From Natronosalvus caseinilyticus (GTDB taxonomy: Archaea > Halobacteriota > Halobacteria > Halobacteriales > Natrialbaceae), in NCBI RefSeq assembly GCF_017357105.1, contig NZ_CP071596.1, positions 1,984,001-2,048,000 of the forward strand: a DNA stretch of 64,000 nt, read 5' to 3'. Each line of letters begins with the position of its first letter. Positions within the stretch are counted from its first letter, which is position 1. A program made the position numbers and the translations under genes. This document shows, one piece after another, positions 7,344-45,708 of the stretch. The notes below the pieces were generated by a model that saw nothing but the letters and a program-made list of their open reading frames with translations, was not told the origin of the DNA and searched no databases.

Positions 7344-8185
7344 TGCTCCCCGACGGACCCGTCGACGGCGCCGAGGACATCGACGCCGCGGCCGAGGACT
7401 GCGATCTGGTCCACGCGAGCGTCGGCGACCGCGTGCCCGGCGTCGCGACCGTCACGATCGACCGCCCGGACGCTCGAAACGCGCTCAACGCACAGGTTCG
7501 GCGCGAATTGAAGGAAATCGCGGCCGCGGTCGCCGAGAGCGACGTCCGCGTCGTCGTCCTCACGGGCGCCGACGAGGCGAAGGCGTTCGTCGCTGGCGCT
7601 GACGTCGGCGAGTTCCGCGACCGGAGCGCCCTCGAGCAGCGCGAAATCTCGAAGCGCCCCCGCGTCTACGAGGTGATCGACGACCTGCCTCAGCCGGTGA
7701 TCGGACGGGTCAACGGCCACGCGCTGGGCGGTGGCTGCGAACTCGCCCAGGCCTGTGACGTGCGCATCGCCCACGAACGGGCGAAGATCGGCCAGCCGGA
7801 GATCAACCTCGGGATCATGCCCGGCGGAGGCGGCACCCAGCGCCTCCCCCGCCTGGTCGGCGAGGGCCAGGCGATGCGCCTGATCCTCTCGGGCGACCTG
7901 ATCGACGCCGAGGAGGCGCTCGAGATCGGTCTCGTCGATATCGTCTGTGGAGACGCCGAGGAACTGGACGAGGAGGTCTACGGGCTCGCCGAATCGATGG
8001 CCGAGCAGAGCCCCGTCGCCCTCGAGCTGGCAAAGACTGCCGTCAAGGCGGCCTCACGGACCGACCTCGAGCAGGGCATCGAGTACGAGGCCGAACTGTT
8101 CGCTCAGCTGTTCGGAACTGCGGACAAGGACGAGGGGATCGACGCGTTCTTCGAGGATCGAGAGCCGGAGTGGACGGGCGAGTGA
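7343..8185 (+). CDS. Enoyl-CoA hydratase / crotonase; stop codon now inside an IS end
   Basis: A crotonase-fold protein of 280 residues with FVAGADVGEF (oxyanion-hole region), GHALGGGCELA and PEINLGIMPGGGGTQRLPR carrying the catalytic Glu. It hydrates trans-2-enoyl-CoA. The first ~35 residues are an acidic extension not usual in the family; an internal start is possible but would lose coupling to the upstream dehydrogenase. The TGA at 8183-8185 appears to lie within the right terminus of the adjacent IS200/IS605 element. Without the element the reading frame would end GAG-TAA, giving the same last residue. Confidence 0.92.
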   Translation: MLPDGPVDGAEDIDAAAEDCDLVHASVGDRVPGVATVTIDRPDARNALNAQVRRELKEIAAAVAESDVRVVVLTGADEAKAFVAGADVGEFRDRSALEQREISKRPRVYEVIDDLPQPVIGRVNGHALGGGCELAQACDVRIAHERAKIGQPEINLGIMPGGGGTQRLPRLVGEGQAMRLILSGDLIDAEEALEIGLVDIVCGDAEELDEEVYGLAESMAEQSPVALELAKTAVKAASRTDLEQGIEYEAELFAQLFGTADKDEGIDAFFEDREPEWTGE

Positions 8186-8330
8186 CTACTCCCACGACTG
8201 AAGTCGTGGGCTTCCCTCACTGAGGGTTAGGCCCACGTCTTCCGAGGAGTTCGCAGGTTCCATTTTACCGTTAGTTCCCTCGAGTCTGACCTGCGTTTCG
8301 GGCTGAGCCACAACAGCCCCCACCGTCGAT
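8165..8330 (-). ncRNA. Predicted TnpB guide RNA (reRNA) of element 1
   Basis: In the IS200/IS605 family the guide RNA covers the tnpB 3' end and right terminus, and its guide is the flanking DNA. By analogy it would run on the minus strand from within tnpB, through the hairpin at 8191-8210, into flank reading TCGCCCGTCCACTCC. That flank is antisense to the last codons of the enoyl-CoA hydratase gene. The boundaries are approximate and expression is not shown. Confidence 0.4.
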
Positions 8331-9370
8331 AGCGGGCTCTGAAGGTCCTTACCGACGGCTCGTTTACCGATATTCGACGCACCGTTCTTGTCCGCATTAT
8401 CATCCAACTCACAGTCGTGGCACTCCACCCGACCCTGCACGTCACGACTCGTGTGCTGACTGCCACACCGCCAACACGTCACCGACGTGTCCGCCTCGTT
8501 CACCGGCAAACACTCTCGACCATCGAGATGGGCTTTGTACGTGAGGATGGTCGCCAGCTTCGCGTACGGCATCTTGTGCGTCTTGTCGTTCACGTACCGA
8601 CCCTTATCGTTGTCGAAACGCAAGCCCGTCAAATCACCGAACACGATGGCAGCGTTCCGTTTACGAGCGCGGGCGACGAGTCCGTTCGCCACCTGATGTA
8701 GTTCGTGTTCGACCGTTCGCGACTCTTTGTCGCCGATGCGGTCGATCACTCGTGCCCCCGAACGAACCTTCGCCTTCCCGATGGACTTGCGGAGTTGCTT
8801 GTAGTGTTCGCGAATGCGTCGCACTTCCACGCCGTGGAATTTGGTCTCACGGTCGGAGAGGAACGTACTGACGGCTATCCATTTGGCACCCATATCGACG
8901 GCGAGTACGTCGTCGTACGCGTCTGCAACGGCCACAGACCGCTTGCAGACGAGGTGGACGTACCACTCACCGTCGCGGCGGACGAGTTCCGAGTCTCGGA
9001 TGTGCTCGTCGGTGAGAAGGTGCGTGTCTTTCTCGGGAACGTGAACGGGTACCCAGATGCTGTCTCCGCGTTCTCGCTCGGGGTTGTAGACGGGGAGTTT
9101 AAACCACCACGACGACAGCACGGTATCCTCGTCGTGTTCAATGGTGATGCAGTCATTTCGAAGAACGACTGGTTGTTCGGTATCCTCGCGTGGGTTCTTG
9201 GTTGACCGGACTTTTCCCGCCTGTTGCTTGGTGGCGGAGTAGAGGTTCGCGTCATCGTCACCGTGAACGGCGTCTTGGAACGCAGTGTATTCGCGTTCGA
9301 TGAGTCGGGCTTTCCGCTGAGTGAGTGAGTGGAGCTTGACCCGTATCGTGGTGGTGACTTCGCGACGCAT
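8186..9370 (-). CDS. tnpB: TnpB RNA-guided nuclease of IS element 1
   Basis: A TnpB of 394 residues. The RuvC-I motif LAVDMGAKWIAV gives Asp159; NADKNGASNI gives Asp327 (RuvC-III). Zinc-finger cysteines are at about 299, 302, 317 and 320. The usual RuvC-II Glu is absent: the strand reads IVFGDLTGL with Gly245. A Glu lies instead at 292 in VNEADTS, next to the zinc finger. ATG 9370 is one base after the tnpA stop; an upstream in-frame start (9406) would overlap tnpA. The last codons and TAG stop are encoded by the right-end hairpin, so the 3' end also overlaps the predicted guide RNA. Confidence 0.9.
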   Translation of the reverse strand: MRREVTTTIRVKLHSLTQRKARLIEREYTAFQDAVHGDDDANLYSATKQQAGKVRSTKNPREDTEQPVVLRNDCITIEHDEDTVLSSWWFKLPVYNPERERGDSIWVPVHVPEKDTHLLTDEHIRDSELVRRDGEWYVHLVCKRSVAVADAYDDVLAVDMGAKWIAVSTFLSDRETKFHGVEVRRIREHYKQLRKSIGKAKVRSGARVIDRIGDKESRTVEHELHQVANGLVARARKRNAAIVFGDLTGLRFDNDKGRYVNDKTHKMPYAKLATILTYKAHLDGRECLPVNEADTSVTCWRCGSQHTSRDVQGRVECHDCELDDNADKNGASNIGKRAVGKDLQSPLSTVGAVVAQPETQVRLEGTNGKMEPANSSEDVGLTLSEGSPRLQSWE

Positions 9371-9371
9371 T

Positions 9372-9761
9372 TTATTGGCCGGTCTGGGCTTCGATGTATT
9401 CCTCAATGGTCTGGCTCGATACCTCGCCTGCTGAGGAGACGAAGTACGAGCGCGTCCACAGCGAGGGGAGGCCGAAGTCGAATTCGTCTCGGAGGTTCCG
9501 CGAGGTGTAGCCCTTGATCTGTTGGATGATTTTGTTCGGGGAGAGTTTCGGATTCCCCGTGATGAACAGGTGTACGTGGTCGGGCTGGATTGCCAGTCGG
9601 AGTATGTCGAGGTCGAGTTCGTCCGCTTTCTCCTCGATGAGTTGTTCGAGACGGTCTACAACCTCGTCGGTCAGCACCGACTTGCGGTACTTCGGACACC
9701 ACACGAAGTGGTAGTGGAGGTTGTGAACCGACGTTCGCTCTTGACTATACCCGCGTGGCAT
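9372..9761 (-). CDS. tnpA: TnpA Y1 (HUH) transposase of IS element 1
   Basis: A protein of 129 residues, the normal length for IS200/IS605 TnpA. It has the N-terminal YHFVWCPKYRKSVL, the HUH motif QPDHVHLFI (His62 and His64), and the catalytic tyrosine in IEEYIEAQ (Tyr122). It cuts and rejoins single-stranded DNA at the hairpin ends. All key residues are present, so the element could be active. tnpB follows one base after its stop. Confidence 0.95.
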   Translation of the reverse strand: MPRGYSQERTSVHNLHYHFVWCPKYRKSVLTDEVVDRLEQLIEEKADELDLDILRLAIQPDHVHLFITGNPKLSPNKIIQQIKGYTSRNLRDEFDFGLPSLWTRSYFVSSAGEVSSQTIEEYIEAQTGQ

Positions 9762-9963
9762 ACAGTTAGATAGATACTACTCACTATTAGTTGCTTTGAT
9801 TCTATCAACCTTACACCGTGCTTTCGAGGAGCGATTGTGTCGGCTTTTTCGGATTCATCCCACGACTGAAGTCGTGGGCTTTCTCCTCGTATCTATGTAA
9901 CCGATATTCTGCTACATCCCGCCGCAGTTTTCGACGCGTCGCCGACCGACCATCGAGCGCCGT

Positions 9964-10560
9964 TCAGGCGAGCGTCTCCCGCTCGGCCGGCGGCAGTCGG
10001 ACGGCGTCGACGATGGGTTCGTCGAACGAGAGGCGCATGGCCAGGTCGCCGCCGCTTCGACCGGTGATCCGGAACCCCAGCTTCCGGTAGACGTGTACGG
10101 CTCGTTCGTTGGCTGCGTCTACGTCGAGCGTGAGCGCCTCGTGGCCGTTTTCGGCGGCCGTGGCGATCGTGTGCCGGCAGAGTTCGCTGCCAACGCCCCC
10201 GTCGTGATAGTCCGGATCGACGAAGATCACGAACTCGGGTTCCGCGCTCGAGGTCGGGGCGTAGGCCGCGTGGCCGACGACGCGCGTCCCGTCTCGAGCG
10301 ACGAGATTGGTGCCCGTCTCGAGCAACGCATCGAGCCAGGCGTCGATTCGCTCGAGACGAATCGGCGGCAGTCCCATCGACCGGTGGGCGTCGGGGTAGT
10401 CCGCGTACATGGCTCGGAGGCCCTCGCGGTGGTGGTCGCTCGCGGGTTCGACGAGCAGCGCGCGTCCGTGCTTGTCGATGAAGCGCGGGCATCGGGGCGG
10501 ACAGCCAGCGGTTCCCTCACACGCTGACGGGTTCCAGGCAGCGCAGGTATCGGTCGACAT
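9964..10560 (-). CDS. GNAT-family N-acetyltransferase with Cys-rich N-terminus
   Basis: A protein of 198 residues. The acetyl-CoA loop region FVDPDYHDGGVGSELCRH and the C-terminal NERAVHVYRKLGFRITGR are clear GNAT motifs. An unusual N-terminal segment has four cysteines (residues 6, 14, 20 and 24) in a C-x7-C-x5-C-x3-C pattern that could bind a metal. It is monocistronic, just beyond IS element 1. The substrate is unknown. Confidence 0.8.
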   Translation of the reverse strand: MSTDTCAAWNPSACEGTAGCPPRCPRFIDKHGRALLVEPASDHHREGLRAMYADYPDAHRSMGLPPIRLERIDAWLDALLETGTNLVARDGTRVVGHAAYAPTSSAEPEFVIFVDPDYHDGGVGSELCRHTIATAAENGHEALTLDVDAANERAVHVYRKLGFRITGRSGGDLAMRLSFDEPIVDAVRLPPAERETLA

Positions 10561-11284: not shown

Positions 11285-13118
<1,834 letters not shown>

Positions 13119-13122
<4 letters not shown>

Positions 13123-34511: not shown

Positions 34512-37500
34512 ATGTCAAGCAAGAATCGTTTCATAGTGACTCTCGTCGCGCTACTCGTGGCGACCGGCATGCTCTTTGCCGGGAGTGCGGTGGCGCTCGG
34601 GGCGACATCGGGATCGAATTCGAATGCATCGAACTGTGAACAGGCGGAGGTAACGATTGTCGACGGGGCGCAAGATAGCTATCAGGAAGCCGACGGCGAC
34701 GAGAATTACCAGGACCAGGTCGCCACGGTAGACGGCGAGTTGCTGCAGAGTCAACTCGCGACCGGCGACGATAACTGCCAGGAGGCGACCCAGGTGCTCT
34801 ACTACCAGCAGAGCCAGGAGCAGTGGGCGTTGTTCGGTGACGACAACGAGCAGGTAGAAGACCAGGGAATCCTCGTTTTCTACACGCAGGATCAGTCCGC
34901 CGAGGGTGACGACAACGACCAGGCAGCCGAACAGCACGGAGACATCCAGCAGGATCAGATCCAGTACGTCATCCTGGGTGTCGACAACGACCAGCTGAGT
35001 GCCCAGGAGGCGGCGCAGGTGCTCGTCCAGTCGCAGTCCGCCGAGGGTGACGACAACGACCAGAGCGCCGAACAGAACCACAACAACATCAGCCAGTTCC
35101 AGATCCAGCTTTCGATCGCTGGAAACGACAACGCGCAAGACGCGAGTCAGACTGGCGTGCAGGTGCTCGAGCAATCCCAGACGGCCGAGGGTGATGACAA
35201 CGACCAGGAAGCCGAGCAAAACGACAACGACATCGGCCAACAGTCGGTTCAGCTGGTGATCTTCGGCAACGACAATGAGCAAAATACCACGCAGGCTGCC
35301 GAGCAAATCTTCAGCCAGGAGCAGACTGCTGAGGGTGACGACAACGACCAAGAAGCCGAGCAAAACGACAACGACATCGATCAGCAGTCGGTCCAGCTCG
35401 TGCTCTTCGGCGATAACAACGACCAGGATGCCAGTCAGAGTGCCAGCCAGTCGTTGAGCCAGGAACAGACCGCCGAGGGTGACGGCAACGAACAAACTGC
35501 CGAGCAAAACGACAACGAGATCGACCAACGGTCGGTTCAGCTCGTCCTCTATGGCGACGACAACGAACAATCGTCCGAACAGGACGGTGAGCAGCACAGT
35601 AGCCAGGAGCAGACGGCAGAGGGTGACGACAACGAGCAGGAAGCCGAGAGCGAACAGGACATCGATCAGGACGCCGAGCAAGAAGCGAGCGGCTACGAGA
35701 ACGAGCAAGCGTCCGAGCAGGAAGCCGAACAGGAGGTCGAGCAGGAACAGGAAATCGAGGACGGTGACGACAACGAGCAGGAAGCCGAGGCTGAGCAAGA
35801 ATCAGACCAGGAGACTGACCAGCAGACGAACGGCGACTACAACGATCAGGAAGCTGAACAGGAGGCTGAACAAGAAACCGAGCAAGAGCAAGAAGTCGAG
35901 GACGGCGACGATAACGAGCAGGAAGTCGAAAGCGAGCAAGAGGCCGACCAAGAAGTCGAACAAGACGCCGACGGCGTCAAGAACGATCAGGAGGCCGAAC
36001 AGGAATCCGAACAGGAGGCCGAACAGGAACAGGAAGTCGAAGACGGTGACGACAACGAACAAGAGGCCGAAAGCGACCAGGAGTCTGAGCAGGAAACCGA
36101 GCAAGACGCTGACGGTGTCCTGAACGACCAGGAAGCTGAACAGGAGGCTGAACAAGAAGCCGAGCAAGAGCAGGAAGTCGAAGACGGCGACGACAACGAG
36201 CAGGAAGCCGAAAGCGAACAGGAGACCGAGCAAGAGGTCGACCAGGATGCTGATGGCGTCAAGAACGACCAGGAAGCCGAACAGGAATCCGAACAGGAGA
36301 CCGAACAGGAACAGGAAGTCGAAGACGGTGACGACAACGAACAAGAAGCCGAATCCGAGCAGGAATCCGAGCAAGAGGTCGATCAAGACGCCAACGGTGT
36401 CGCCAACGATCAGGAAGCAGAGCAAGAATCCGAACAGGAGGCCGAACAGGAACAGGAAGTCGAAGACGGTGACGACAACGAACAAGAAGCCGAGGCTGAG
36501 CAAGAAACCGAACAGGAAACCGACCAGGACGCCAACGGCGCACTGAACGACCAGGAGTCCGAACAGGAAGTCGAACAGGAGATCGAACAGGAACAAGAAG
36601 TCGAGAACGGTGACGACAACGAACAGGAAGCCGAAAGCGAACAAGAGGCCGACCAAGAAGTCGAACAAGACGCTGACGGTCTCGCCAACGAACAGGAGGC
36701 CGAACAGGAAACTGAACAAGAAGCCGAACAAGAGCAGGAAGTCGAAGACGGCGACGACAACGAGCAGGAGGCCGAAAGCGAACAGGAATCTGAGCAAGAA
36801 GTCGAACAGGATGCCGACGGTGCCCTGAACGATCAGGAAGCCGAACAGGAATCCGAGCAGGAAGTCGAGCAGGAACAGGAAGTCGAAGACGGTAACGACA
36901 ACGACCAGGAGGCCGAATCCGAACAGGAGACCGAGCAAGAGGTCGATCAGGACGCCAACGGTGTCGCTAACGACCAGGAGGCTGAACAGGAAGCCGAACA
37001 GGAGGCCGAGCAGGAACAAGAAGTCGAAGACGGCGACGACAACGAGCAGGAGGCCGACCAGGAGAGCGACGTCGAACAAGAGGCCGACCAGGAGGCGACC
37101 GGAACCTCGAACGGCCAGAACGTCGAACAGGACGCCGAAACCGACCAGAACCAGGAACAGACCGTCGAGAACGGCGACGACAACGAACAGACTGCCGAAC
37201 AGGACGCCGAGGTCGAGCAAAACGCCGACCAGGATGCCACTGGCGACGATAACGACCAGTCCATCGAACAGGACGCGGAAGTCACCCAGGACCAGGAACA
37301 GACCGTCGAGGACGGCGACGACAACGAGCAGACCGCCGAACAAGACGCCTCGATCGAACAGAACGCCGAACAGGACTCGGACGGCGCTGACACGGTGACC
37401 CAGACCGACGAGACCGAAGTCGACCAGACGCAAACGCAGCACGCGTCCGGTGACGACAACACGCAGTCCCAGTCCCAGTCGACCACGATCACGACCAGCC

Positions 37501-37514
37501 AGAGCGCCACGTAA
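34512..37514 (+). CDS. Giant secreted Gln/Glu/Asn/Asp repeat protein with curlin-like spacing
   Basis: A protein of 1000 residues. Residues 1-30 are a Sec-type signal (FIVTLVALLVATGMLFAGSAVALGA). Residues ~125-375 hold 48-residue repeats; AEGDDN starts recur every 144 bases at 35040, 35184, 35328, 35472 and 35616. Each repeat has two turns of the type Q-x4-G-x2-N-x-Q-x3-Q with V/I/L between glutamines. From ~415 to ~850 come 47-residue repeats (141-base spacing) where nearly all those hydrophobic positions are Glu. G-x2-N-x-Q is kept throughout. A third, mixed form ends the protein. There is no anchor or PGF-CTERM. The spacing resembles curlin (CsgA) repeats; function is unknown. Confidence 0.8.
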   Translation: MSSKNRFIVTLVALLVATGMLFAGSAVALGATSGSNSNASNCEQAEVTIVDGAQDSYQEADGDENYQDQVATVDGELLQSQLATGDDNCQEATQVLYYQQSQEQWALFGDDNEQVEDQGILVFYTQDQSAEGDDNDQAAEQHGDIQQDQIQYVILGVDNDQLSAQEAAQVLVQSQSAEGDDNDQSAEQNHNNISQFQIQLSIAGNDNAQDASQTGVQVLEQSQTAEGDDNDQEAEQNDNDIGQQSVQLVIFGNDNEQNTTQAAEQIFSQEQTAEGDDNDQEAEQNDNDIDQQSVQLVLFGDNNDQDASQSASQSLSQEQTAEGDGNEQTAEQNDNEIDQRSVQLVLYGDDNEQSSEQDGEQHSSQEQTAEGDDNEQEAESEQDIDQDAEQEASGYENEQASEQEAEQEVEQEQEIEDGDDNEQEAEAEQESDQETDQQTNGDYNDQEAEQEAEQETEQEQEVEDGDDNEQEVESEQEADQEVEQDADGVKNDQEAEQESEQEAEQEQEVEDGDDNEQEAESDQESEQETEQDADGVLNDQEAEQEAEQEAEQEQEVEDGDDNEQEAESEQETEQEVDQDADGVKNDQEAEQESEQETEQEQEVEDGDDNEQEAESEQESEQEVDQDANGVANDQEAEQESEQEAEQEQEVEDGDDNEQEAEAEQETEQETDQDANGALNDQESEQEVEQEIEQEQEVENGDDNEQEAESEQEADQEVEQDADGLANEQEAEQETEQEAEQEQEVEDGDDNEQEAESEQESEQEVEQDADGALNDQEAEQESEQEVEQEQEVEDGNDNDQEAESEQETEQEVDQDANGVANDQEAEQEAEQEAEQEQEVEDGDDNEQEADQESDVEQEADQEATGTSNGQNVEQDAETDQNQEQTVENGDDNEQTAEQDAEVEQNADQDATGDDNDQSIEQDAEVTQDQEQTVEDGDDNEQTAEQDASIEQNAEQDSDGADTVTQTDETEVDQTQTQHASGDDNTQSQSQSTTITTSQSAT

Positions 37515-37576: not shown

Positions 37577-37621
37577 GCCTCGGGGTCAAGCCCCGAGGCA
37601 CTCGGCCTGTTCTTTCTGTAG
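37577..37621 (-). repeat. Possible orphan IS200/IS605 left end (hairpin)
   Basis: GCCTCGGGG (37577-37585) pairs with CCCCGAGGC (37591-37599). The hairpin is followed after exactly 18 bases by GTAG (37618-37621), the same spacing seen between hairpin and GTAA in the three IS elements here. No tnpA or tnpB is attached. The alternative is a plain terminator hairpin between the two convergent genes. The rest of 37515-37899 shows nothing else. Confidence 0.4.
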
Positions 37622-37899: not shown

Positions 37900-39039
37900 C
37901 TACGTGTGGCCGGCCTTCTTTTGCTTCTTGTAGTCCGGCACACACTCGCTCTCGTCTTCGTTTTTGTGTTCGTCGTCGGTTTCGTCCTCGTCATCACCGT
38001 CGTTACTTTCGTCCTCATCGCTTTCGTCTCCGTCGCTCGTGCTCGTGTGTTCCTCCTGGGTACTGATCTGTACGCTCTCCTGGATCACGTAGATCGCGCT
38101 CTCGTTCGCCTCGACGACGATATCGACGTCCTGGTCGTTCAGCTGGGAACTCTCCTGTATCACGTCGGCCGTCGCACCTGGACCTGCCGCGGCGGCCATC
38201 GCCTCTTGCTCGCTGCGCTGGACGTTGATCTGGGCGACGACGACCGCCGCCTCCGACGCGGTGACGTTCACCGAGGCGAACTGGGTCGCGCGCTGGTCGT
38301 TCTCCTGTTGGACGACCGCCGACGCGTTCTCGCCAGCCGCCGCCGCGTAGCCCCTCTGGTCGTTCTCCTGGACGTTCAACTGGACGACGAGGACGGCTGC
38401 CCGTTCGGCGTCGACCGTGACCGTTGCGTTCTGATTCGTCGTCTGGTTGTTCTCCTGATAAACCGCTGCGCGGCTGTCGGGTCCGGTCGCCGTCGACTCG
38501 CCGTCCTGCTCGGTTCGATCGCGGGTGACTTGCTCCACCGTCACGACCGTCCCGTGATCGGTCGTGATCGTCGCTTCGCCGTCGTCGACGGCGAGCGTTT
38601 CGCCGTTCGCAGTCGACGCCGTCACGTCGTTCGTGAAGTCCGCGAGCGTCGCCTCGTCGGCGTCGTCCGCTGACTCCAGCAGCGTTCCCCAGACGAGTTC
38701 GGCGTCCTCGTCTTCCAGGGCGTGCACCCGCGTCGACTCTTCTCCGTCGATTGTGCTCGATTCGATGACGACCGCCTCGAGTTCGTGGGTGTCGAATTCG
38801 GCGAGTGCCTCCTCGATCGACATCGTTCCGTCTTCGGTCACGACCGTGGCCGAGTCGGTGCCGTTCCCGGCGTTCGCGTGTGACTGATCGGGCTGGTACG
38901 ACGTCGCCTCGAGTGGCGTCTGGGTCGCTTCGATAACGGTACCTGTCGCTGCCAGCGATGCGCCTGCTGGGACTGCCATGCCGATCACGACGATGACAAC
39001 CGCGAGTAGTGTGATCGGGACGGGAGTGTGTCTTTGCAT
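37900..39039 (-). CDS. Secreted protein with three ~48-residue Gln/Asn repeats, convergent to the giant repeat protein
   Basis: A protein of 379 residues from ATG 39039. It has a signal (PITLLAVVIVVIGMAVPAGASLA) and an acidic N-terminal domain to ~170. Three repeats of 48-50 residues follow (about 185-335), each with Q-x-N-x-Q turns alternating with V/A/I-rich strands such as AAVLVVQLNVQENDQ and AAVVVAQINVQ. The tail is a Ser/Asp/Glu run ending in a basic KKQKKAGHT. Repeat length and Gln/Asn spacing parallel the neighbour at 34512-37514. Several N-x-S/T sites suggest glycosylation. TTATTAAAAC (about 39074-39083, minus strand) may be its TATA box. No known family recognised. Confidence 0.75.
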   Translation of the reverse strand: MQRHTPVPITLLAVVIVVIGMAVPAGASLAATGTVIEATQTPLEATSYQPDQSHANAGNGTDSATVVTEDGTMSIEEALAEFDTHELEAVVIESSTIDGEESTRVHALEDEDAELVWGTLLESADDADEATLADFTNDVTASTANGETLAVDDGEATITTDHGTVVTVEQVTRDRTEQDGESTATGPDSRAAVYQENNQTTNQNATVTVDAERAAVLVVQLNVQENDQRGYAAAAGENASAVVQQENDQRATQFASVNVTASEAAVVVAQINVQRSEQEAMAAAAGPGATADVIQESSQLNDQDVDIVVEANESAIYVIQESVQISTQEEHTSTSDGDESDEDESNDGDDEDETDDEHKNEDESECVPDYKKQKKAGHT

Positions 39040-39663
39040 GATAATACCGATTTTGACGACGGTAACGGCGTGTTTTAATAATGACTTCCCAACCATTCGT
39101 AGGGTGGTCCAACGGGGCCGCTGGGGCCTATCCGGGAGATTTACAGTGGGATGAGCGGTCTGTAGCAGGCGAATATCGAACACTCACTGCGAACATCGCT
39201 CGAGAGAGGAGGCCATTACCGAGGTGTACGGGCTGGATACCGGCCGGCGCACCTGGCCACGGACCCGCGAAATTCGAAATAGCGGAGTTAAAAGGGGGTT
39301 ACGGACCGGCTATCGGAATCGTCGCTCGAGGACGTGTTCGTGCGGAGTCCCCGCCGGTTCTACGATCCCCGATCCCGGAAGTATAATGTGGCCTTTCGAT
39401 GAACTATTTCGGTCTCTCCCGGTGGTCGACTCGATCCTGATACGTCTCGACACCCTCGCGTCTGGCGTACGTGAATCGCTAGTGATGTGTCGTCGACGGG
39501 ACTATTACGGCGGTGAAATGGCACGTATCGACGACACACACGTACGATGACGAGTAACCGCAGTCGGAAACTTCAACATGTGACGGTTTACGGACGATAT
39601 AACTCTAATTGTCAACCCATGACGAGGTTCTCCCTTTAAGAGAGCAGTGGTCGATGGAGTCGA
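39040..39663. other. 620-base stretch without a confident gene
   Basis: It holds the promoters of the two divergent genes. A 54-codon open frame at 39386-39550 (MWPFDELFRSLPVVDSILIR) starts nine bases after a TATA-like AAGTATAA. That is too close for a normal promoter, and the peptide has no family features. I do not call it a gene. Confidence 0.4.
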
Positions 39664-40242
39664 GTGAATGCTGTACGCATGAACGGGAATAGTCAGCTGC
39701 TCGAGGACCTCTCGGAAGACATTCGAGAGATGACGAGGAATCTCCGGCGGCGATACGTGCTGTATTGCCTGTCAGAGCGAGACGGTCCGGTGGACCTCTT
39801 CGACCTCGTCGAACGCGTCGCGAGCTGGGAATCCGGGTGCGAACCCGATCAACTCGACAGGCGAACCGTCAAATCGGTCTATAGCTCGCTCTATCAGTCC
39901 CACCTCCCGTTGCTCGAGGAGCGAGACCTCGTCTCGTTCGATCGGCAACGAAAGGTCGTCTCGCCGACGGACCGGACGAAACGCGTCACGATCGAATTTC
40001 GGACGGACCCGTCCCCACTCGATCGGCAGTCGGCAGCCACGATCGTCGGAGTCTCGATTGCAGCCGCGTCGGTGAGCCTCTGGGGAGGCCAGCTCTTCCC
40101 GACCGCGATCAGTGGACTCGTGGGCATCACCCTGCTCGCGGTCGTGCTCGTCTCGAGCTACGCCGCGTATCGATCCGCTCGGCGATCGACGACGTCGATT
40201 GCGCCGGATTTCACGCTCACCGTCGACGACACGCGTCGGTAG
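39664..40242 (+). CDS. DUF7344-type winged-helix protein with C-terminal membrane helices
   Basis: A protein of 192 residues. The first ~110 residues fit the haloarchaeal DUF7344 winged-helix pattern (RRRYVLYCLSERDGPVDLFDLVERVASWE, then YSSLYQSHLPLLEERDLVSFD). Two hydrophobic segments follow (~120-165), so it is a membrane-tethered regulator candidate. CCTTTAAG (about 39633-39640) is ~26 bases before the GTG at 39664, consistent with a leaderless GTG start; ATG 39679 is the alternative. Targets are unknown. Confidence 0.7.
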   Translation: MNAVRMNGNSQLLEDLSEDIREMTRNLRRRYVLYCLSERDGPVDLFDLVERVASWESGCEPDQLDRRTVKSVYSSLYQSHLPLLEERDLVSFDRQRKVVSPTDRTKRVTIEFRTDPSPLDRQSAATIVGVSIAAASVSLWGGQLFPTAISGLVGITLLAVVLVSSYAAYRSARRSTTSIAPDFTLTVDDTRR

Positions 40243-40393: not shown

Positions 40394-43312
40394 TCAAAAA
40401 TCGTCCACACTCGCGTCCGTTTCCCCGTCTGGGTCGTAGTTGGGTATCGAGGAGGTCAACTCGAATTCGTCGAACCCGTCGGTATCCTCGACCAGGACGT
40501 TCTCCGTTGCTGCTCCGTCTACTCGTTGTGCCACCAGTCTGCTGTGGGCGGCCTGTAGTTCCTCGACGGAGAGGTCCAGTTCCGGATCCAGAAACTCGAG
40601 GAGCACTCGATCGAGTTCGTCCTGTGCTCCGTCGACACCCCGTACCAGTTTCTCTCCGGCCGCCACAATCCGCTCACGTTGTGACTCGGACATCAATTCC
40701 GGACTGGGAACCGGAACCGACGACACTTCGTACGTGAGCAACTGAAGCGCCCCTCCGCCCTCGTGACGGCCCCACAGTTCGAGCAGTACCTTGTACACGG
40801 TCGAGTGGAGAATAGCCGGAAGTACGTCGTCGTACTCGGTGATATCGACGCACTGGATCGCGTTCGTCGGCGCATACCCACCGGCGTTGTCGACCGTGAA
40901 CACCCGTTCGTTGTAGAACACTGGATGTAAGACGTCCGGGACGAGCAGGTGTCCCAGGTTGAACCAGGGCGTACGTTGAGACACGGTTCGTCCATCGGGG
41001 ACGCCCGCTTCTTCCCCGTACTCGAGGTAGCTGACCGTCGACTCGTACCCGTCGGTGCGTAACTCGTTCGTTACTGCTTCTGCCAGGTCGCTCGTCGAGC
41101 CCAATCCGTCCTGACGTGCCTCGACAGTATCGACGTACGCGCAGAAATCGAGAAGGTACTGATCCGTATCCGCCACGCGATACGACTCCAGCGCTCGAAT
41201 CGATCGAATCGCTGGCTGCAGGAATCGCTCGTCGATCCCCCACTGCGTGACGTCCTGCTCGTCGAGCAAGAAAAAGTCGTTATTTCCCGTCTTGTTGCCG
41301 AACGCCACGTCTGCATACGTATCCAGCCGCCGCATCTTGTCGCTGTGGACGAGCGAGATGAACGGACTCGGGCCGTACAGGTAGTGGCCGAGCTTTCGCC
41401 CACCCTGTCTCTCCAGGCGGTTCTGGGAGAGACTGACGACTCGGTACGCGTCGGTCATCTCGATTCCAAACGCCTTCCCGTCGGGGACCGACCGTCGAGC
41501 GCCCGCAATCGACGGGAGTTCCGCAGGCGACAGTCGCTCTTTCACCCGGATGAAGTCCGTAACCGTCTCCCGACGCTCCGTTTCGTCGGTACATCGTTCG
41601 GCGAACAACACTACCGTATCGACGAGGGGGGTGAACGCTCTGTCGGAAAACCCGACGATAGCGTGGACTTTCGCCTGATCGTACAGGAACTCCTGAAACG
41701 ACTCGCCGTATTTCGTCGTTAGCCACTTCGCGGGAACGATGAATCCGAGGCGTCCCCCGTCTCGGAGGAACTGCAACGCGTGTGAGACGAAGTAGACGTA
41801 CGCGTCGGACCTGGTCGATAGTTCGTTCCGCCCGCTCGCGTATCGACTCGAGTTCTCCGCGCCGTACGTCCTCAGGTGAGAACGGAAGTGGTCCCTGTCG
41901 GGAGACAGGTTCTCCTGGCGGATGTACGGCGGGTTCGCGACTACTGCGTCGTATCTCCTCGTCTCGTCTTCCGTATCGTCTCCCCGCGACAGCCGCCTGT
42001 CCCCGGGTGACACGTTGAAGAAGGAGTCGTTGATCGTGTGTAATCGGCTGGTTCGCTCCTGGACGGTTCGTGACGCGAGATTGAGCGCCGTGAGGTGTAA
42101 CGGAAATCGGCTGACGTCGATTGCGGTGATGTTGTCGAGAATCTCCTGGTGTGTTGCCGAGGGTGCTAGCGCCTGCATTCGGTGGTACGCTTTTACCGGG
42201 AATGTACCGCTTCCGGACGCCGGATCGAGGACTCGAGGGACGCCATCTCTCTGCTCCTGGGGTTGCAGCGCCCAGGTACAGATCGCTTCGGCGATATCTG
42301 GATGGGTGTAAAACTGCCCGAGGGACGTTCGATCGTGTTCTGTGATCAGGTCCTCGTACGGTTCCCCCAGCAGGTCCTCGTCGACGGTGGAGAGGCTCTC
42401 TGTCTCGATACGCCCGAGCAGTGCACGCACGGCTGACCGCGTTTTCGAATTGTGTGGGTACGCGGCGAACAACGACGGACCGTCGTCGAACGCGGGTTCG
42501 AAGTCAATTTCCGCCCGAATCGCTTCGACCTGCTGCCCGATTCGGGGTGGGCTATCGGCCGCCGAGGCGCCTTCGACGAGGGGCTCGAGCGGATAGCTGC
42601 TCGTCTCGCCTGGTTCGGACCGCTGTTCTCGAACGACTTCGGCGAACAGAAGGTGACTGGCGACCAGGTACGCGTACTGTTTGGCGGCGAGGGAGAACCG
42701 TATAGACTCCTCGAGTGACGCGTACTCGTTCTCCCGGAGCCACTCGTCGAATCTCTCGGCGAAATCGGGGTCGGAATCGTACGTTTCTCGAGCGAGGTCC
42801 CGGAACGTCGGCCAGATCGAGTCGTGAAACGAACGAAGCGGGCCGACGATTCGGTCGCGTGCGCTCTGTTCGGGAAGTTCACCGTGGGTCGTGAGAAACT
42901 GAACCGCGTAGAGAATCGTCGAGAATCGGTCGTTTGCCGACGGACCGTCGACGTCGACGTCACGGAAATCGAGGTAGTAGTGGGGAATCTCCAAAATCTC
43001 ACGCTGGCCCGTGTCGTGAAACAGGAAGAAGTCACGGGAGTTGCACGTCGCGAAGTGCTCGACGTCGGCCGCATCTGCGGTGTCTCGAGCCTGCGTCATT
43101 ACGTCGGCGTCGAGGGGATAGACGCAATCGCGCTCGACTGCGATGACCAGGCTCTCGGTGACGTCGGATTCGACGACGATGTTCCCCAGTCCCGGCTCGC
43201 CTCCCTCCTCGATTCGAACGGATTCGAACGGCGTTCGTTCGCGGTGGACACAGTCACGTAATCGCGTACAGAGAACACGGTGGAACTCCGATTCGGATGG
43301 AGTACCCGGCAT
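40394..43312 (-). CDS. Large N6-adenine DNA methyltransferase (type IIG-like), nuclease domain apparently dead
   Basis: A protein of 972 residues. Residues ~1-110 look like a PD-(D/E)xK nuclease fold: IVVESDVTESLVIAVERD then QARDTADAADVEHFATCN. The E-x-K pair is replaced by A-V-E. The methyltransferase core has motif I VLDPASGSGTFPVKAY (~365) and motif IV VVANPPYIRQE (~465), as in Eco57I/IIG enzymes. The C-terminal half (~650-950) resembles target-recognition regions (VAFGNKTGNNDFFLLDE). No separate restriction subunit is seen nearby. Roles could be solitary methylation or a defence remnant. Confidence 0.82.
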   Translation of the reverse strand: MPGTPSESEFHRVLCTRLRDCVHRERTPFESVRIEEGGEPGLGNIVVESDVTESLVIAVERDCVYPLDADVMTQARDTADAADVEHFATCNSRDFFLFHDTGQREILEIPHYYLDFRDVDVDGPSANDRFSTILYAVQFLTTHGELPEQSARDRIVGPLRSFHDSIWPTFRDLARETYDSDPDFAERFDEWLRENEYASLEESIRFSLAAKQYAYLVASHLLFAEVVREQRSEPGETSSYPLEPLVEGASAADSPPRIGQQVEAIRAEIDFEPAFDDGPSLFAAYPHNSKTRSAVRALLGRIETESLSTVDEDLLGEPYEDLITEHDRTSLGQFYTHPDIAEAICTWALQPQEQRDGVPRVLDPASGSGTFPVKAYHRMQALAPSATHQEILDNITAIDVSRFPLHLTALNLASRTVQERTSRLHTINDSFFNVSPGDRRLSRGDDTEDETRRYDAVVANPPYIRQENLSPDRDHFRSHLRTYGAENSSRYASGRNELSTRSDAYVYFVSHALQFLRDGGRLGFIVPAKWLTTKYGESFQEFLYDQAKVHAIVGFSDRAFTPLVDTVVLFAERCTDETERRETVTDFIRVKERLSPAELPSIAGARRSVPDGKAFGIEMTDAYRVVSLSQNRLERQGGRKLGHYLYGPSPFISLVHSDKMRRLDTYADVAFGNKTGNNDFFLLDEQDVTQWGIDERFLQPAIRSIRALESYRVADTDQYLLDFCAYVDTVEARQDGLGSTSDLAEAVTNELRTDGYESTVSYLEYGEEAGVPDGRTVSQRTPWFNLGHLLVPDVLHPVFYNERVFTVDNAGGYAPTNAIQCVDITEYDDVLPAILHSTVYKVLLELWGRHEGGGALQLLTYEVSSVPVPSPELMSESQRERIVAAGEKLVRGVDGAQDELDRVLLEFLDPELDLSVEELQAAHSRLVAQRVDGAATENVLVEDTDGFDEFELTSSIPNYDPDGETDASVDDF

Positions 43313-44192: not shown

Positions 44193-45708
44193 TTGACATC
44201 CACCCACGACTGAAGTCGTGGGATTCCTCTCGTGGGAGTCTCAGTCGTCTGAGTCCCCGAGAGCGATATTCCCGCGTGATGCGGTACTCCGGGTTGTGTA
44301 TTCCTCGTTGGTCGTTGTTTCCGCGATGGAAGGCGGGCTATGGTCGTCCCGCCAGTTGTGATTGTTCCACGTGAGGTACACGGGCCGTGCCATCGACCCG
44401 ACTGCTGTTTGCCGTCTCAGGAACGATTCCGACGCGATGAGGTCGGCGTGTCCTTCGAACCCACATGGGCACGTCAACGAATCTTCGTGACGACGTGTAT
44501 TGTCGCGTTCACCGCACACAGGACACTCTGACTTGTCCACGCTTCGGATTCTTCCCCGACCGTGATACCGTACTCTTCGCATATGTCTTCGAGGCGGTCG
44601 ATGAACCGCCGGTACGCCCAGAAGTTGTGTGTCTTCTCGTTCACACGCGACGACCAGTGCGTTGAGAGAACGCCCTTGATGTCGCCGACGTACAGCGTCG
44701 AAACACCCTCGTCATACAGGCGTTCCACAAGGTCTCGGACGAGGCTGTCTTGGGCGTGGTTGCGGCGGTTCGTGCGCGTTCGATACAAGCGGTTGATGCG
44801 CTTGCTAGACTTGCGTTGGTCTTCGAGGAGCGACTGATAGTACGCGATTTGTTCGGTGATTTCGCGGAACTCCGTGAACAAGGTGCGTCCGTCATACAGG
44901 TATTGGGAGCCGGTCGTTGTCGTGCAGGCGACGAGGTTGTTCGCGCCAACGTCCAGAGCGGCTTCTTCCGAAGCCAGTGGTGAATCCAGTTGAGAACTGG
45001 CGATGGTGACTGGTTGATAAGCCCTGAACGTCTTCGCGAGTTCGTCGTACACGAGTTCGAGTCGGCCCTGCTCGCCGCTCCACTTCGGGTCGCCCGTAAC
45101 CTCAACGCGAAGGCGCTGATTCCGGTTCAGCCCGAGTTCGCCTTTGAGTTCGGAGCCAATCGGGACTTCGAGCCGGGAACGCTTCCCGAACTTGAGGGTG
45201 TACTGGTCGTTTCGAACGTAGGTGCGTAGGACTCGTCCGTCGCCTTCGTTGCCCCAGTACCCGGTGGCGACGGTCGGTCATCGAGTTTCCCGGCGTGGTA
45301 CCTCTCGTTACTGGAGAAGAACGATCGCCACGCTTCGGAGTTTTTGCGGATGAGTTGCTGGGCGACACTACTGCTGAGGACGCCTTTGTATTTGCCTTCG
45401 AGGCTACCGGTATCGGCGTCCCAGACGCTCTCATCGTCTTCGAGGAAGGCTTGGCGACGAGCGTAGTTGGTCTCGTTCCAGAGACTCGCAGAAGCGTCCA
45501 ACCAGCGAACGAACACCTCGCGCTCCTTTTCGGAACGAGGGCAAACGTCGAACTGGTTGGTTCGCTTCATCACTACGTGATACGTAATATTGGTTCGTAA
45601 AAGTATGGATTAGCGTGGGAGACTCAGACCTGCCATCGCACGTGGTCGGGTAGCGGAGTGTCGGATTCATCCCACGACTGAAGTCGTAGGCTTTCTCCTT
45701 GATTCTGT
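44193..45708 (-). mobile_element. IS200/IS605-family element 3 (tnpB only, decayed)
   Basis: Left-end hairpin CCCACGACTGAAGTCGTAGG (45671-45690) is 18 bases from GTAA (45709-45712; TTAC on the element strand). The right-end hairpin (44203-44222) is followed by TCAA (44193-44196 complement). There is no tnpA. The terminal hairpins match element 1, while the tnpB matches element 2, so the ends and the gene come from different lineages. It probably moved with a TnpA supplied in trans. Confidence 0.8.
44241..45573 (-). pseudogene. tnpB: tnpB pseudogene with two frameshifts
   Basis: Three frames together cover a full TnpB like that at 11794-13122. Residues from MMKRTNQFDVC run to about 45260, where the frame shifts. 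The middle part (including [17 protein letters not shown] and ESEAWTSQS) runs to about 44530, where a second shift occurs. The zinc-ribbon end ([14 protein letters not shown]...[11 protein letters not shown]) is in a third frame. The RuvC-I Asp and the EAWTS Glu are still readable. It is not expected to make a working protein. Confidence 0.88.

Follow-up and report, generated by a model that had tools for sequence, protein, structure and literature searches.

Curlin is a left-handed beta-solenoid with two short strands in each 23-residue coil. The curli system of Escherichia coli (CsgA/CsgB; Curlin_rpt, PF07012; PMC10192328) offers several parallels to the protein described here: in both, a secreted chain is built from tandem units roughly 23 residues long that carry G-x2-N arcs, Gln ladders appear to face inward and polar residues outward, and a long major protein is encoded close to a minor second repeat protein. 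Further parallels come from archaea. The sheath proteins of Methanospirillum and Methanothrix (SH/MspA; PMC6242892, PMC10593813, PMC11576556) are secreted and amyloid-like, with two-sheet cores and Cys residues proposed as unit staples; the SH core pairs two antiparallel sheets of six strands each and has cap domains (PMC11576556). Biofilms of Haloferax volcanii stain with Congo red and ThT, although the protein was not identified (PMC4180959).

We analyzed a 64,000-nucleotide stretch of the Natronosalvus caseinilyticus chromosome (hereafter, the window), which encodes a giant protein of this general kind. Like the sheath proteins, it is archaeal, predicted to be secreted, and possibly amyloid-like, but it differs from SH in its 47-residue repeats, its presence in haloarchaea, and the absence of any detected relationship; it had neither a sequence match (E up to 10) nor a significant fold match, in comparisons covering PDB chains. 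The Haloferax biofilm material is likewise extracellular and haloarchaeal, but being a stain result only, it is at best an analogous case, and a scan of the species collection for the giant returned no Haloferax member. A last connection is with FG-GAP/integrin-alpha-type propeller surface proteins (PF01839): in other genera, the giant's partner at five loci carries such propellers along with Gln repeats, whereas the window genus has a different 427-aa partner without FG-GAP.

Two predicted faces of a Gln-rich repeat

The giant protein and its parts are as follows.

34512..37514, + strand: giant Gln-repeat protein (type A), 1000 aa (from the ORF, turn count, and orthologs)
34512..34601, + strand: predicted Sec-type signal sequence, residues 1-30 (MSSKNRFIVTLVALLVATGMLFAGSAVALG), from the translation
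34635..35621, + strand: head, residues 42-370, 48-residue repeats with a putatively outward hydrophobic stripe
34635-34637 and 34776-34778, + strand: head Cys42 and Cys89
35622..37511, + strand: acidic stalk, residues 371-1000, 47-residue repeats, 44% Asp+Glu

The ORF starts with ATG, and its hydrophobic N-terminus is kept across all homologs. It contains 39 G-x2-N-x-Q turns, whereas 1000 shuffled versions of the mature sequence have 4 at most; the turns are spaced 23 to 25 residues apart except for a single gap of 45 residues close to the C-terminus. The autocorrelation maximum lies at 48 up to about residue 370 and at 47/94 thereafter, and from residue 418 the stalk consists of 11 units of 47 residues, nine of them canonical and two, at the C-terminal end, divergent. 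Hence, the earlier note, made from the letters alone, was right in describing a signal-bearing 1000-residue protein with these turns, 48-residue repeats giving way to 47-residue ones, and about nine copies of the latter. The stalk ends in a conserved GDDNTQS..TITTSQSA strand. Searches of the giant against Pfam and NCBIfam returned nothing above cut-off, and a recognized membrane or S-layer anchor was found neither in it nor in its companion (see below).

Between the turns, Gln and small residues share one phase of a strict alternation and acidic residues the other. When positions are numbered from the turn Gly as 1, Gln occupies even and odd positions in a ratio of 161:7 and acidic residues in a ratio of 9:221, an alternation matched by 0 of 2000 shuffles and seen also in six homologs, including one in which the acidic residues are mostly replaced. 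Across the 23/24-residue half-units, G1, N4, Q6, and Q20 are essentially invariant. Conserved Gln and variable Glu would be expected if Gln stacked inside as a ladder and acidic side chains faced solvent. Indeed, in a comparison of the window protein with those of Halostella pelagica and isolate HArc-gm2 (three genera in all), Gln is identical at 61/67 positions in the head (91%) and 33/37 in the stalk (89%), and acidic residues at 22/79 (28%) and 14/91 (15%), respectively. The Halostella stalk has Asn/Asp/Ser/Gly in place of Glu while keeping the Gln positions and the G-x2-N frame; an all-Glu second part, as first described, is thus not essential.

What changes between head and stalk is the outer face alone, the Gln/G-x2-N frame being the same on both sides of the boundary. 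The positions G-2/-4/-6 before the long arc are hydrophobic in 17/18 cases in the head and Glu in 34/36 in the stalk of the window protein; the hydrophobic share drops from 86% to 17% in Halostella and from 58% to 0% in HArc-gm2. The switch from hydrophobic residues to Glu had been placed in the turns, but it affects these strand positions instead. From the phase of the alternation, we infer that they face outward, so that the head would bear an exposed hydrophobic stripe absent from the stalk.

Predicted structure

With residues 41-560 of three sequences (window, Halostella L060, and HArc-gm2 L061) as input, AlphaFold2 produced one good model of five (pLDDT 76.6, pTM 0.76; the other four had pLDDT 60, 39, 32, and 30). 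In this model nearly all of the stretch is predicted as strands, mostly of 18 to 22 residues and interrupted at the G-x2-N turns, in both parts; mean pLDDT is about 78 in the head, where blocks reach 91, and about 77 in the stalk (residues 371-560). Most half-units form such 18- to 22-residue strands, with the strand split at NDN in two head repeats, and many turns are short, with just 2 or 3 non-strand residues. The beta structure of the giant is accordingly a prediction with moderate support. The earlier note had named a disordered or coiled-coil first part, in structure prediction and circular dichroism, as grounds for refutation; the model suggests neither. Its picture of an amyloid-like or solenoid head joined to a highly charged part holds insofar as the model joins an extended beta-rich head to such a part; the structural break it placed between "amyloid head" and "stalk" does not, as the frame and the predicted strands continue unchanged.

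Foldseek comparison of the model with the PDB gave no match at E <= 0.001; the weak matches (E > 0.001, none significant) are mostly beta-helix proteins. Among viral predicted structures, the best match was an uncharacterized Tetraselmis virus protein (TM 0.48-0.54). Sequence searches of the PDB with profiles of the giant head and the companion likewise gave no match at E up to 10. The giant's only two Cys are 46 to 48 residues apart in 8/8 type A and type B proteins with an intact head; this spacing equals one 47-residue coil, and the two could therefore stack in neighboring coils, where a disulfide would be possible. The Gln regions of the FG-GAP partners have a Cys pair 43 to 45 residues apart.

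Taken together, the geometry of the turns, the distance between the Cys, and the kind of protein among the weak Foldseek matches lead us to favor, as a model, a wide solenoid of parallel coils, each with two long strands, over an antiparallel meander. In the latter, the long strands would form hairpins in one giant meander sheet or a pair of sheets, with assembly by stacked Gln faces. The short turns of the model fit this arrangement too, and DSSP alone cannot separate the two; however, a meander would put the Cys two strands (about 9.6 A) apart, too distant for a disulfide, where the solenoid stacks them directly, and the weak matches are mostly parallel beta-helices. We consider the hairpin arrangement rather unlikely.

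A different proposal would confine the fold to the head and regard the Glu-rich part as an extended or helical, largely unstructured polyanion, serving as a halophilic spacer or cation-binding matrix. Such a role is suggested by the 44% Asp+Glu, a net charge of about -273, and a Chou-Fasman helix propensity of 1.16 versus 0.78 for strand in the window stalk. Against this, Gln and the G-x2-N frame are as well conserved in the stalk as in the head, unlike Glu, and the modeled strands run on to residue 557 at pLDDT 58-88. Further, the helix-poor composition of the Halostella stalk shows no helix bias (Chou-Fasman 0.96) although the frame is kept; this, with the conservation of Gln and frame, disfavors a helical or coiled-coil stalk. 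The polyanion proposal thus appears distinctly unlikely.

Relation to curli and evolution of the repeats

The curlin-like spacing claimed for the protein is real to the extent that G-x2-N arcs recur every 23 to 25 residues, but the motif itself is not that of curlin. With the curlin motifs as defined in PMC10192328 and CsgA of E. coli K-12 as reference, G-x2-N-x-Q occurs 39 times in the giant and 0 times in CsgA, Q-x-G-x2-N-x-A 0 and 5 times, and N-x-psi-x-psi-x-Q 0 and 5 times, respectively. CsgA has Gln at 10 and 22 and Ala at 6; in the giant, Gln falls at 6 and 20, and N-x-Q-x-A-x-Q stands where curli have N-x-psi-x-psi-x-Q. The giant's strands would run uninterrupted for 17 to 20 residues in a 47-residue coil, unlike the 23-residue coil of curli, and its outer face is acidic. 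The profile check against curlin proposed in the earlier note was negative: PF07012 matched neither the giant nor anything in its genome (E. coli control detected), and hhalign of the giant against curlin repeats gave a probability of 0.1%. CsgG (PF03783) was not found in the genome, with controls detected, nor was a csg operon. The organism, being an archaeon, has no outer membrane in any case. A divergent, CsgA-type curlin could account for the extracellular location, the spacing, the arcs, the inward Gln ladder, and the second repeat protein; with neither curlin motif, PF07012, nor CsgG present, hhalign so low, and the central second arc absent from most half-units, we judge it very improbable. 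By sequence, then, the giant is not a curlin: it resembles curli in style and appears to form a separate family.

Nor are curlin-type repeats foreign to archaea. PMC3521004 mentions in passing an archaeal protein whose curli-like repeats are regularly spaced, and a different genus of this haloarchaeal family has true PF07012 curlins in three genomes, the giant not being one of them. The claim that no archaeal system of this kind has been described needs qualifying to this extent. The three curlins (G034:C1:1329075-1329671 at locus L063, and those of G076 at L065 and G077 at L064) have signal sequences and 19-residue N-x-A-x-V-x-Q repeats.

The stalk units share a mean of 73% amino acid identity, with pS 0.64 and pN 0.17 (pN/pS 0.26). 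High pS beside low pN points to repeats that are old and kept as protein by purifying selection, in agreement with the earlier argument from codons that selection acts on the protein and that recent DNA duplication is not the whole cause. Some units in relatives G007 and HArc-gm2 have been homogenized recently (up to 96-99% nucleotide identity), and "GNHN" turns are lineage specific, occurring in nearly all G007 units. Low-complexity expansion of repeats without a selected structure, which would suit this homogenization, the variation in repeat number between genomes, and the G330 pseudogene, is hardly credible because of the purifying selection among units (pN/pS 0.26), the positional conservation across genera, and the conserved ends, Cys, and gene neighborhood.

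The gene module and its possible role

Downstream of the giant gene, the window contains further features.

37577..37599, between two convergent genes: perfect 9-bp inverted repeat, GCCTCGGGG-tcaag-CCCCGAGGC, read from the sequence
37900..39183, - strand: companion secreted Gln-repeat protein, 427-aa ORF (from the ORF, orthologs, and paralog)
38047..38502, - strand: three 50-residue repeats of the V-x-Q-x-N-x-Q type in the companion
39664..40242, + strand: DUF7344 winged-helix-type gene (PF24035, E=9e-24) with two C-terminal transmembrane stretches, these read off the sequence

The companion gene is convergent with that of the giant, and the inverted repeat between them is terminator-like. Alignment with its paralog suggests ATG at 39039 as the likely start. 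Its orthologs are 92% identical and the paralog 48% (52% over the matched stretch); its autocorrelation at period 50 is 0.45, against a shuffle maximum of 0.26. It had no Pfam or NCBIfam match above cut-off, and its single-sequence AlphaFold2 model (pLDDT 45) is unusable. A DUF7344-type gene with transmembrane stretches, probably a regulator, lies near every type A giant found. Beside it, a 972-aa ORF (40394-43312, - strand) looks by eye like a large restriction-modification methyltransferase with an NPPY motif, and is also present in G002 and G007. Elsewhere in the window are TnpB-like transposon proteins, likewise recognized by eye (8186-9406, 11794-13122, and 44474-45052, all - strand, the last apparently a truncated remnant), and a near-perfect tandem array at 308-458 (7.9 copies of the 19-bp unit TTCTCGGTTGATCGGTTGG, 98% matches).

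A second locus in the same genome (L012) encodes paralogs of both companion and giant, the latter of type B, the pair having been duplicated together. The earlier note connected the giant with none of the three: companion, paralogous locus, or regulator. A 181-aa ORF between the two (L012 7012-7557), possibly exported, had no Pfam match. Beyond this genome, giant orthologs have heads 90% identical in two congeners and 57-63% identical in two other genera. Relatives sharing the G-x2-N-x-Q spacing do exist in other genera, and the earlier note had named their absence as grounds for refutation. Further giants of type A are those of Halostella pelagica, HArc-gm2, G238, and G330; G245 has one of type B, and G013 a third form broken by gaps. 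The repeat profile matches 9/341 genomes of the class. The G330 copy (L058, about 7900-10500, - strand) is a pseudogene broken by several stops, with the adjacent FG-GAP partner and DUF7344 genes open. In place of the hydrophobic head, type B giants (L057 8570-11386 and L012 7995-10634) have a short insert rich in Leu (LLQLLEILLGSNQDI / LLRLLDIIQNSNQDI) close to the N-terminus. Neither viral contigs nor plasmids yielded a giant head.

A second secreted Gln-repeat protein adjoins the giant in 9/10 loci. In five loci of other genera, the giant (type A or B) is preceded by a protein of 1200 to 1590 residues that runs from FG-GAP propeller repeats through an acidic linker and Gln repeats to a tail that is acidic or rich in Ser/Thr; Pfam was applied to the Halostella copy (PF01839, E=5e-29), with which the other copies align. 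No such partner was found in the N. caseinilyticus genome, and the companion profile matched only its own genus among the 341 class genomes and the species collection. The N-terminal domain of the giant's partner is thus exchangeable between loci. We rejected kinship of the companion with the FG-GAP partner, as profile comparison found no relation; the giant head matches the FG-GAP partner profile weakly, probably by composition, and profile comparisons gave no sequence evidence tying partner repeats to giant repeats.

On balance, we think it probable that the giant is a secreted structural protein that folds extracellularly as a flat, broad beta-solenoid bearing a Gln ladder and forms a surface fiber with its partner. 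Each coil of 47-48 residues would comprise two strands of about 17 to 20 residues joined by two G-x2-N arcs, a short one (A-D-G-x2-N-D-Q) and a long one (V-E-D-G-x2-N-E-Q). Inside, Gln alternating with Ala/Ser/Val/Thr would stack between coils as ladders, yielding an amyloid-like cross-beta core, and Glu/Asp outside would suit molar salt conditions. At 4.8 A per coil and 3.3 A per residue, a molecule of about 20 coils would work out as a rod or ribbon some 10 nm in length and 6 nm in width. The two lone Cys may staple the first two coils; the outward V/L/I/F stripe of the head probably makes side-by-side or partner contacts, with the rest as an acidic extension that would stay soluble. By analogy with CsgB and CsgA, the companion and its similarly sized Gln repeats probably serve to nucleate, cap, or anchor the polymer, and the membrane-bound DUF7344 regulator probably controls the giant. 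The likely role is as a surface fiber or matrix in adhesion and biofilm.

Secreted beta-repeat proteins and candidate functional amyloids are already known in kind; searches of libraries and literature returned no described family for the repeat, the coil geometry, or the gene module, and the 47-residue two-strand coil has no significant counterpart among solved structures (Foldseek against the PDB). There is a real chance that the giant and its module are a separate system. More tentatively, haloarchaea could have an extracellular amyloid-like fiber system of their own, unrelated by sequence to curli and sheaths, combining a giant Gln-ladder solenoid (two paralogous types), an exchangeable Gln-repeat nucleator or adhesin (with an integrin-like propeller or a genus-specific domain), and membrane-bound DUF7344 control; we regard this as possible, though short of probable. 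The giant family would show how a cross-beta core can be kept soluble or assembled in molar salt, with constant inner Gln ladders and an outer face free to vary (Glu versus Asn/Ser/Gly). It also offers a concrete class of candidates, open to genetic tests, for the amyloid-dye-binding material of haloarchaeal biofilms (PMC4180959).
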